Assembly (NCBI GenBank): GCA_031262805.1
Contig: JAISGX010000128.1
Coordinates: 1-34,811, forward strand
DNA: 34,811 nt
Origin: Verrucomicrobiota bacterium
Lineage (GTDB): Bacteria > Verrucomicrobiota > Kiritimatiellia > CAIQIC01 > Lenti-01
Direction: 5' to 3'
The notes under the pieces are model-generated. The model ran no database searches and was not told the origin of the DNA. It saw only the letters and a program-made list of their open reading frames with translations. This document shows positions 31,179-34,811 of this stretch, piece after piece; the first letter of the stretch is position 1; every line of letters starts with the position of its first letter. A program made the translations under genes and the position numbers.

Positions 31179-31235
31179 CAGTTTTGCAAGATAATGCTTG
31201 CCCTTCTGCGGATGCGAGTTGAATATTCCTCGCGT

Positions 31236-32504
31236 ATGTCAAACCGTCGTTGCAGAATTGTCGTGGGCTCGGACCATGGCGGCTATGAATTGAAAGAACA
31301 GCTGGCTGGGTGGCTGAAAGGCCTCGGCCACAATGTGACCGATGTGGGAACCCACTCCCGCGAGGCTGTGGATTATCCCGTGTTTGCCGCCGCCGTTGCC
31401 CGGGCCGTCGCATCGGGCAGATCGGACCTAGGCCTCATGGTGGACGCTGCGGGCATCGGCTCGGCCATGACGGCCAATAAAATCCCGGGGGTGCGGGCGG
31501 CGGCCTGCTATACCGTGGCACTGGCCGAAAATTCCCGAAAGCACAACGGCGCCAATGTCCTGACATTGGGCTCCGGACAAGTCGATAGTGAACAGGCGAA
31601 GGCCATTGTGGGTGCCTTTATCGCCACGGACTGCACCGAAGAGAGGCACCTGCGGCGCGTTCAGATGATCAAGGACCTCGAAAGCGGGCGGGCGGGAACC
31701 CCCATCATGACCGCCATTAAGGAGATGAAATTGGAACTCAGTCCTCAAGATGTCGCGCGCATTGCAGAGCGCGTGAAACAAATCGTAGGCGGCGGCACTT
31801 GTGCAGGCGGTGGCAATCTGTCCGCGAGCCAGCTGGCCCGGATGATCGACCACACGCTGCTGAAGCCGGAAGCCACCAAGGCGGATGTCAAACAACTGTG
31901 CGAAGAGGCCATGAAATACAACTTCTTCAGCTGTTGCGTGAACTCCTCCATGGTGAGCGTGGCCGCCCAAGCTCTTCGTGGTTCCTCCGTCAAGGTGTGC
32001 GCGGTGGTCGGCTTCCCGCTGGGCGCAGCCCCTTCGCAGATCAAGGCGTTGGAAGCCCGCCGGGCCATCCGGGAAGGCGCCAAGGAGATCGACATGGTCA
32101 TCAATGTCGGCATGGTCAAGGACGGCAATTGGGATGGGGTGACCAAGGACATCCGCACAGTGTCCGACTCCTGCAAGGATGGCGGCGCCCTCTTGAAGGT
32201 CATTCTGGAGACCTGCCTGCTGACCAAGGATGAAATCGTCAAAGCCTGCGAGGCCTCCATGCGTGCACGCGCCGATTATGTGAAGACCTCCACCGGGTTC
32301 AACAAAGGCGGCGCCACGGCCGAGGATATTGCGCTGATGGCCCGCACGGTGGCCCCTCGGCACCTCGGGGTGAAGGCCTCCGGCGGTGTCCGCACATATG
32401 CGGATGCCATGCTGATGATCCGAAACGGCGCCACGCGCATTGGATCGTCCAATAGTGTAAAAATGATGGAAGAAGCGGCCGCCGCCACCGGCAGCAAACG
32501 ATAA
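31236..32504 (+). CDS. RpiB/LacAB-family isomerase domain fused to deoxyribose-phosphate aldolase (DeoC) domain
   Basis: N-terminal RIVVGSDHGGYELKEQLAGWLKGLGHNVTDVGTHSREAVDYP..RKHNGANVLTLGSG; C-terminal ARMIDHTLLKPEATKADV..VVGFPLGA..ADYVKTSTGFNKGGAT..GVKASGGVRT. Alternative start 31194. Confidence 0.93.
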   Translation: MSNRRCRIVVGSDHGGYELKEQLAGWLKGLGHNVTDVGTHSREAVDYPVFAAAVARAVASGRSDLGLMVDAAGIGSAMTANKIPGVRAAACYTVALAENSRKHNGANVLTLGSGQVDSEQAKAIVGAFIATDCTEERHLRRVQMIKDLESGRAGTPIMTAIKEMKLELSPQDVARIAERVKQIVGGGTCAGGGNLSASQLARMIDHTLLKPEATKADVKQLCEEAMKYNFFSCCVNSSMVSVAAQALRGSSVKVCAVVGFPLGAAPSQIKALEARRAIREGAKEIDMVINVGMVKDGNWDGVTKDIRTVSDSCKDGGALLKVILETCLLTKDEIVKACEASMRARADYVKTSTGFNKGGATAEDIALMARTVAPRHLGVKASGGVRTYADAMLMIRNGATRIGSSNSVKMMEEAAAATGSKR

Positions 32505-32513
32505 GGAGTCGAT

Positions 32514-33134
32514 ATGGCAGAACTCAGAACATACGTATTCATTGACAGCCTGCAACCGCAGTTTGCCTCGTTTTTGGCCACCGTGGCCCGCGGCTTCCTC
32601 CCGATTGCCGGTCAGGCCGCGCTGTTCGTGGAAATCTCTCCGGGCATCGCCATCAACCAAGTCACGGATGTCGCCTTGAAATCCACCCGCGTCACCCCGG
32701 GCATGCAGATTGTCGAGCGCCTCTACGGCATGCTGGAAATCCACTCCTCCTCTCAGGCGGATGTCCGCCAAGCCGGAGCCGCCATCCTGAAGGATCTGGA
32801 TCTGGAAGAAGAGCAACGCATCAAGCCCAAGGTCTATTCCTCGCAGGTCATCCGGAACATCGACGACCACCAGACCATGCTGATCAACCGCATGCGCCAC
32901 GGCAACATGATCACCCCGGGCCAATCCCTCTATGTGATGGAAGTGGCTCCCGCCGGATATGCCGCACTGGCCGCCAACGAGGCGGAAAAGGCCGCCGATA
33001 TCAACATCTTGGAAGTGGTCACCTTCGGTAGCTTCGGACGAATCTATCTGGGTGGCGAAGAACGAGACATTGATGTCGCCTACCGTGCGGCGGAAGCCGC
33101 GCTCGAAGCCGTTACCGGACGTGCGGACGGCTGA
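32514..33134 (+). CDS. BMC-T shell protein (tandem, apparently circularly permuted BMC domains)
   Basis: Two EutS-like repeats: [50 protein letters not shown] and [50 protein letters not shown]. Confidence 0.85.
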
Positions 33135-33179: not shown

Positions 33180-33473
33180 ATGGCAGATGCACTGGGAATG
33201 ATTGAAACCCGTTCCTTCCCCGCAACCGTGGAAGCCGCGGATGCAATGGTGAAGGCAGCGAAGGTCGAATTGGTCACGTACGAAAAAACCGGCGGTGGGT
33301 TCACCTCCGTCATCGTGCGTGGCGATGTGGCCGCCGTCAAAGCCGCCTGTGATGCCGGACAGATTGCCGCCGGCCGCGTCGGCGAAGTGGTCTCCGTCCA
33401 TGTCATCGCCCGCCCCCACGCCAACGTGGATGCGGTGCTCCCGCTCGGCCGTGCGCCGGCGAAGAGCAAGTAG
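33180..33473 (+). CDS. BMC-H hexameric shell protein (PduA/CcmK-like)
   Basis: [69 protein letters not shown]. Confidence 0.97.
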
Positions 33474-33576: not shown

Positions 33577-33864
33577 ATGAATCTCGGTAAAGTCGTTGGA
33601 ACCGTTGTTTCCACTCGCAAGGAATCCGTCCTGGATGGAATCCGCTTTCTTCTTGTTCGGCTTGTGGATGCCGATGGCCGGGACACCTCCAGCTTTGTGG
33701 TCTCCGCCGATGCCATGGGCGCCGGTGTGGGTGAAATGGTGCTGACCGCCGCCGGATCCAGCGCTCGCCAGACCAGCATGACCCAAAACCGCCCGGTGGA
33801 CAACGTCATCATGGCCATTGTGGACACGTGGGAAGTCGGCGGTGAAACCAAGTACACCAAGTAA
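33577..33864 (+). CDS. BMC-P pentameric vertex protein (EutN/CcmL)
   Basis: [71 protein letters not shown]. Confidence 0.96.
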
Positions 33865-33915: not shown

Positions 33916-34811
33916 ATGAAATTAACCGATCAAGACATTGAAGCCATCGCCCAGCGGATCGCTGGAGATTTTCGTGCGCCGTCCTCCGTCCCCTCCGCCC
34001 TCGCCGCTTCGGCTGCAAGCCCTTCCGACGGCGGGTTCAGCGGTGAGATGGGTGTGTTCGCCACCGTGGATGAAGCGGTCAAGGCCGCCAACAAGGCCAA
34101 GCCGGTCTTCATAGGCCTTCCGCTGAATGCCCGTCGAGCCATCATCCAGAATATCCGCGATGTCATGAGGGAAAATGCCACCCTGCTGGCCAAAGCGGCA
34201 TATGAGGAAACCGGCTATGGTCGCTTTGAGGACAAAATCCAGAAGAACCTGCTGGTCATTGAAAAATCCCTAGGCACCGAGGCTCTCCAGCCCCACGCCT
34301 GCACCGGCGAACATGGCCTGACCCTCACCGAATACGCCCCCTTCGGTTGCCTAGGCGCCATCACCCCGACGACAAACCCCACCTCCACCATCATCTGCAA
34401 CGCCATCTGCATGTTGGCGGCCGGCAATGTGGTGGTCTTCAACGTCCATCCCTCCGCCCGGTTGTGCTCCATTCAAACCGTCGTACTATTGAACAAGGCC
34501 ATCACCGCCGTAGGTGGACCACCCAACGCCGTGGTCTGTGTCTCGCAGCCCACCATTGAGTCCGCAGGCGAGCTGATGAAACATCCCGGCATCCGTGTGA
34601 TTGTGGTGACGGGCGGCGGCGGCGTGGTCAAAGCCGCCATGTCCAGCGGCAAACGCGCCATTTGCGCAGGACCCGGAAACCCCCCCGTCGTGGTGGATGA
34701 AACGGCGGACATCGAAAAAGCCGGCGCCTCGATTGTGCAGGGCGCTTCTTTCGACAACAACATGATTTGCATTGAGGAAAAGGAGACCATCGTGGTCGCC
34801 TCGGTGGCCGA
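33916..34811 (+). CDS. CoA-acylating aldehyde dehydrogenase (PduP/EutE-like), 3' end beyond window
   Basis: MKLTDQDIEAIAQRIAGDF helix, GCLGAITPTTNPTSTIICNAICMLAAGN, VVTGGGGVVKAAMSSGKRAICAGPGNPPVVVD, catalytic-Cys motif NNMICIEEKE; no stop before 34811. Confidence 0.93.
   Translation, partial: MKLTDQDIEAIAQRIAGDFRAPSSVPSALAASAASPSDGGFSGEMGVFATVDEAVKAANKAKPVFIGLPLNARRAIIQNIRDVMRENATLLAKAAYEETGYGRFEDKIQKNLLVIEKSLGTEALQPHACTGEHGLTLTEYAPFGCLGAITPTTNPTSTIICNAICMLAAGNVVVFNVHPSARLCSIQTVVLLNKAITAVGGPPNAVVCVSQPTIESAGELMKHPGIRVIVVTGGGGVVKAAMSSGKRAICAGPGNPPVVVDETADIEKAGASIVQGASFDNNMICIEEKETIVVASVA

Follow-up and report, generated by a model that had tools for sequence, protein, structure and literature searches.

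Towards its end, the window (the whole stretch of DNA that was analysed, 34,811 nt) carries a gene in which an RpiB-type isomerase and a DeoC-type aldolase are joined through a putative encapsulation peptide (EP). The longest ORF of this RpiB-EP-DeoC fusion gene spans 31194-32504 (+), within which the conserved start is the ATG at 31236, where homologues begin MSNRRCRIAVGSDH; the full-length product (31236-32504, +) has 422 aa. Pfam matches place the RpiB domain at 31257-31670 (+; PF02502, E 6e-46) and the DeoC aldolase domain at 31842-32414 (+; PF01791, E 6e-17). Downstream, the operon continues on the same strand with a BMC-T-like shell protein (32514-33134; its PF00936 match is marginal, just under the cut-off), BMC-H and BMC-P shell proteins identified by Pfam matches (33180-33473 and 33577-33864), and an aldehyde dehydrogenase (ALDH, 33916-34809) with the N-terminal EP MKLTDQDIEAIAQRIAGDF, which reaches the contig end and is truncated there. 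The combination of pfam01791 aldolase, pfam02502 isomerase, BMC-H, BMC-T (the marginal match), BMC-P and ALDH fits the sugar phosphate utilization (SPU) microcompartment locus (PMC8217296).

Another contig of this genome (G000:C78, L004) has a BMC-T gene at its end, together with BMC-P and a PF01676 metalloenzyme (phosphopentomutase-like), and is probably the remainder of this SPU locus. As for a phosphotransacylase (PduL), the window's contig stops within the ALDH gene, and on C78 a 180-aa ORF beside the BMC-T and BMC-P genes gave no Pfam match.

The linker helix and its unfused relatives

Within the single ORF, with RpiB upstream and DeoC downstream, positions 31731-31815 (+) encode LELSPQDVARIAERVKQIVGGGTCAGGG. 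The sequence-only reading had likened this linker to the N-terminus of the ALDH; both sequences were recovered as it quoted them, the second at 33916, and both match the pattern that it proposed. Translation, alignment and predicted structure place the EP-like amphipathic helix, LSPQDVARIAERVKQIV, at 31737-31787 (+), followed at 31788-31814 (+) by a Gly-rich tether leading to DeoC. The hydrophobic moment of the helix, 0.63, ranks sixth among the 395 16-mers of the protein. Of the points on which the earlier claim had been made to depend, conservation among homologues is borne out, and the helix is predicted not to be buried in either domain. Across 53 aligned fusions, the core columns D, I, R and V are occupied by one residue at approximately 80-100%, whereas the Gly/Ala-rich flanking tethers reach only approximately 20-40%, and the window's own tether varies among relatives in length and composition. 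When a profile built from the linker helices only was run against all ORFs of the loci, its main non-fusion matches were ALDH N-termini (12 ALDH against 6 other non-fusion matches at ≥8 bits). In an AlphaFold2 model (pTM 0.59, from a shallow alignment of 56 rows) the RpiB and DeoC domains are confident, helix 170-184 is of moderate confidence, and the segments on either side have a pLDDT of about 50-66; the helix is thus predicted to stand isolated between low-confidence linkers and to belong to neither domain core. It probably loads the enzymes into a bacterial protein organelle. One published model has EPs occupying the hydrophobic grooves that form where shell tiles meet (PMC11157265); because that paper, in its accessible text, states no need for a free end, an internal EP could also bind the shell.

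Searches of relatives, the class, the phylum and two further phyla yielded 62 distinct fusions, which occur in Kiritimatiellae/Verrucomicrobiota (Kiritimatiellota), Acidobacteriota, Planctomycetota (Phycisphaerae), Gemmatimonadota and Myxococcota; the viral contigs searched held free RpiB relatives only. The EP-like helix is present in all of them except that of genome G051, flanked on either side by tethers that differ in length. Where the two genes are unfused, the motif is found at the N-terminus of DeoC, and RpiB lacks it: in tandem SPU loci RpiB mostly stops soon after its domain without an EP, and an amphipathic helix opens DeoC (in Bacillaceae, for example, MQIEALVEQITNQIMQQLTNK). The helix is missing from the DeoCs of loci that have neither shell genes nor rpiB nearby. 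Some Acidobacteriota loci (e.g., L085, L087, L101) combine rpiB, deoC and the N-terminal helix, with no shell gene within the stretch examined around the locus.

Three genomes (G033, G051 and G055, 93-96% complete) gave no matches to PF00936 or PF03319, the BMC-H/T and BMC-P families. The DeoCs of G033 and G055 have no EP, and G051 (L045) provides a natural control in which the fusion is retained and the helix has decayed to LSGDNIQRIANQDKPHVN. The helix, found on BMC-associated cargo and absent or decayed in these non-BMC homologues, therefore tracks the shell rather than the fusion.

In the DeoC tree the fusions fall into two distinct groups, one with 52 members and the other with 8. The smaller is nested among unfused DeoCs with N-terminal helices, and the direction of change in it is known for that reason. 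Just under half of the unfused rpiB-deoC pairs (24/53) are in frame, and in several the rpiB stop falls within the SD (Shine-Dalgarno) spacer of deoC and shares its frame (L199 and L201: AAGGACTGAGCCATG), where the loss of a single stop codon would be enough to yield the observed fusion. Because the helix is conserved in fusions, N-terminal when unfused and missing without shell genes, comparison of the loci identifies it as DeoC's own N-terminal EP, moved to the interior in no fewer than two independent fusions. The idea that the EP was copied separately from the ALDH was rejected, as unfused DeoCs carry the EP already. One fusion gene (L046:2100-2420, genome G024) is split: about 70 nt, including the EP, are deleted and the frame is shifted; given these defects and the short contig, we did not rely on it as a natural fission, and the split is either an assembly error or a real loss.

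A selected start signal inside the fusion gene

The sequence-only reading took the helix for a copy placed between the enzymes that would target or anchor the two together. Its EP-like character stands; that it is merely internal does not, given the conserved Shine-Dalgarno sequence and start codon directly upstream. What had been missed is that the fusions retain DeoC's own start. In the window the Shine-Dalgarno sequence AAGGAG (codons AAG GAG; 31719-31724, +) is conserved in relatives, and codon comparison predicts the start codon TTG at 31731-31733 (+), 6 nt past it and two codons before the helix. Because the conserved SD and start codon lie directly before the helix, a second, DeoC-only product with an N-terminal peptide is predicted: EP-DeoC, 257 aa (MELSPQDVARIAERVKQIV...), from 31731-32504 (+). 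It would start MELSPQDV, with the motif at the same distance from the start Met that it has in the ALDH's MKLTDQDI. We infer two products, RpiB-EP-DeoC and EP-DeoC, the latter with a terminal peptide; the EP is accordingly internal in the full-length ORF and N-terminal in unfused relatives and in the predicted short form. The ATG at 31725, immediately after AAGGAG, was rejected as the start, since nothing separates it from the SD and the more distant fusions do not conserve it.

A start codon two codons upstream of the helix is found in 39 fusions (18 TTG, 14 GTG, 7 ATG), mostly with an SD approximately 6 nt upstream; in Acidobacteriota L191-L193 a strong SD and GTG are placed slightly farther upstream. 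Among 20 close relatives the start column reads TTG in 17 and ATG in 3, in the other Leu columns TTG is in the minority, and the GAG of the SD is kept in 20/20. L or V residues at the start position are encoded by TTG or GTG in 32/34 cases (8.9 expected; P 0.0006 at <70% identity and 0.04 at <65%). Since the search region was picked post hoc, these single-column counts are outweighed by two tests that cover every start codon in it. In 38/62 fusions, against 8.5 expected (P 1e-18), no in-frame NTG codon has a better SD than the EP-proximal start, which ranks first in 15/28 at <70% identity (P 3e-7). Its SD is also stronger than in synonymous shuffles (combined P 2e-15; 8e-6 at <70% identity). 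The relatives are not independent, and significance drops under stricter clustering.

In strength the internal SD (-8.6) is on a par with shell-gene starts (-7.5 to -7.9) and far from other NTG codons (-2.7) and the full-length start (-1.7, median). Furthermore, the mRNA is more open at the internal start (0.50 versus 0.40, P 5e-9). Against initiation here, TTG is a weak start codon. Like a dual-product gene of the CcmM type, the gene contains an internal SD and start codon that are in frame and under selection.

The full-length start has no SD. In the Kiritimatiellae group it is preceded by CTTGCC, a gap of 16-18 nt, an A/T-rich hexamer and then about 9 nt to the ATG; in the window these promoter-like elements (31197-31235, +) are CTTGCC at 31197-31202 and AATATT at 31222-31227, ending 8-9 nt before the ATG. 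The pattern, common to the Kiritimatiellae relatives, suggests that in this group the full-length product is translated from a leaderless mRNA. Because a consensus scan upstream of the fusion gene found no sigma-70 site, it is the conservation of the pattern that argues for this.

Two predicted products and the alternatives

Setting out from what the sequences establish, namely where the EP came from, how it is conserved, that it goes with shell genes and that its internal start signal is under selection, we propose, with a probability of about 0.77, that the linker helix is the N-terminal EP of SPU DeoC, internalised by fusion to RpiB, and that the ribosome-binding site and start codon of deoC were kept, giving two predicted products. 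Loss of the rpiB stop codon would have joined RpiB ahead of the EP, which now lies between the enzymes, and the start signals of deoC would have been retained within the fused frame. Full-length RpiB-EP-DeoC would then be made from the SD-less, perhaps leaderless start, and initiation at the TTG at 31731 behind the internal SD would give the shorter EP-DeoC; the EP would be present in both. Lacking an EP itself, RpiB would reach the organelle solely as a passenger of the long form, and the short form would contribute additional DeoC and determine the RpiB:DeoC ratio. The production of both proteins, the binding of the EP to the shell and the purpose of the ratio are inferred.

The internal SD and start codon could instead be fossils of the old deoC start, with the full-length fusion as sole product and its internal EP anchoring both enzymes. 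A fossil is indeed to be expected initially in a fusion that came from adjacent genes, the reading frame guarantees the full-length product, and a strong internal start has been lost in some lineages: weak or displaced starts are seen mainly in Acidobacteriota L187, L188 and L194 and in the f15 family. Yet the fusions of clade A keep the SD and NTG unchanged while neighbouring synonymous sites vary, the residue changes between L, V and M with the codon remaining NTG, and the SD is as strong as those of functional shell-gene starts, so that we consider this explanation unlikely, if worth keeping in mind. In the younger clade the two-product step could nonetheless be a relic.

It is quite improbable that the helix is a mere structural interdomain linker or dimerisation element with no role in targeting. 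Helical linkers are common and the helix does lie between two enzymes, but in unfused SPU DeoCs it is N-terminal and links nothing; it resembles ALDH N-termini, its flanks are flexible in the AlphaFold2 model, and it is gone or decayed without shell genes, even in the still-fused gene of shell-less G051. The chance is slighter still that conservation of AAGGAG..NTG reflects an amino-acid constraint (KE-x-x-[LMV]) or coincidence rather than initiation: the KEMK residues are conserved too in the nearest relatives, but more distant fusions encode KENA, KELP, QETE, RGTD, KGGS, PGGS or EEAA and their DNA is still SD-like, and the signal vanishes in synonymous shuffles.

The two-product reading may be extended by analogy with CcmM to a two-isoform cargo device in a catabolic organelle, a possibility that we raise tentatively and think doubtful as it stands. 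Leaderless-made RpiB-EP-DeoC might cross-link RpiB and DeoC oligomers, SD-started EP-DeoC might dilute and cap the network, and the ratio of the two modes of initiation might set cargo nucleation and RpiB:DeoC stoichiometry.

Known systems and wider relevance

PduB/PduB' is a shell protein made in two forms by an internal start; it shares with the window's gene an internal start in a BMC gene, and differs in being a shell protein whose forms have a short N-terminal difference. In CcmM of the beta-carboxysome, an internal ribosome-binding site gives two products, M58 and M35, from one gene (PMC8580825). The window's gene would resemble it as a single BMC gene whose internal ribosome-binding site allows two products, each retaining the cargo-gathering module; unlike CcmM, the window's protein is an unrelated metabolosome enzyme fusion rather than a scaffold, and its isoforms are predicted. 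With the EPs of the PduP, PduD and PduL type it has in common an amphipathic helix of approximately 17 residues that adjoins a flexible tether and belongs to a BMC cargo enzyme, but here the helix is internal in the full-length ORF and tethered on both sides, becoming terminal in the predicted short form only.

An aldolase-isomerase (RpiB-DeoC) fusion was known earlier from Marinimicrobia (Axen 2014, PMC4207490), whereas those found here are in Verrucomicrobiota/Kiritimatiellota, Acidobacteriota, Planctomycetota, Gemmatimonadota and Myxococcota. The SPU loci of Axen 2014 and Sutter 2021 (PMC8217296) likewise group a DeoC-type aldolase, an RpiB-type isomerase, ALDH and BMC-H/T/P genes; the EP within the fusion and the internal translation start are features of the present analysis that the accessible text of those papers does not describe. 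Fusion and internal initiation (the latter in CcmM) are thus already known, and it is their combination that is without earlier report in the literature searched. That search found no report combining fusion, internal EP and internal start, and no internal or mid-protein encapsulation peptides; Axen 2014 alone combined microcompartment, ribose-5-phosphate isomerase and deoxyribose-phosphate aldolase.

Fusion ahead of a neighbour's peptide could be a natural route into an organelle for an enzyme without a targeting peptide, here RpiB. The one-gene-two-proteins arrangement is predicted for SPU metabolosomes, and gene finders that report a single bifunctional protein would overlook the second product. 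Designers of microcompartments could borrow the layout for loading two enzymes at a tuned ratio. SPU metabolosomes are a widespread type, and we know of no studies of their assembly.

Two further features were observed among the relatives. RpiB of the Wallbacteria type (L138:7992-8690, L120:3683-4372) has an EP-like helix on its C-terminal side, ISQQQLIAAVIERVLAALGG, and beyond it an unannotated tail of approximately 60 residues; against Pfam, the protein matched for the RpiB domain alone. Between the EP and the DeoC domain of L084, L088, L089, L091 and L134 there is a Cys-rich segment (several CxxC-like pairs, then AGAxRIS), present also in many unfused SPU DeoCs (L095, L100, L109), which is possibly a metal or Fe-S site.
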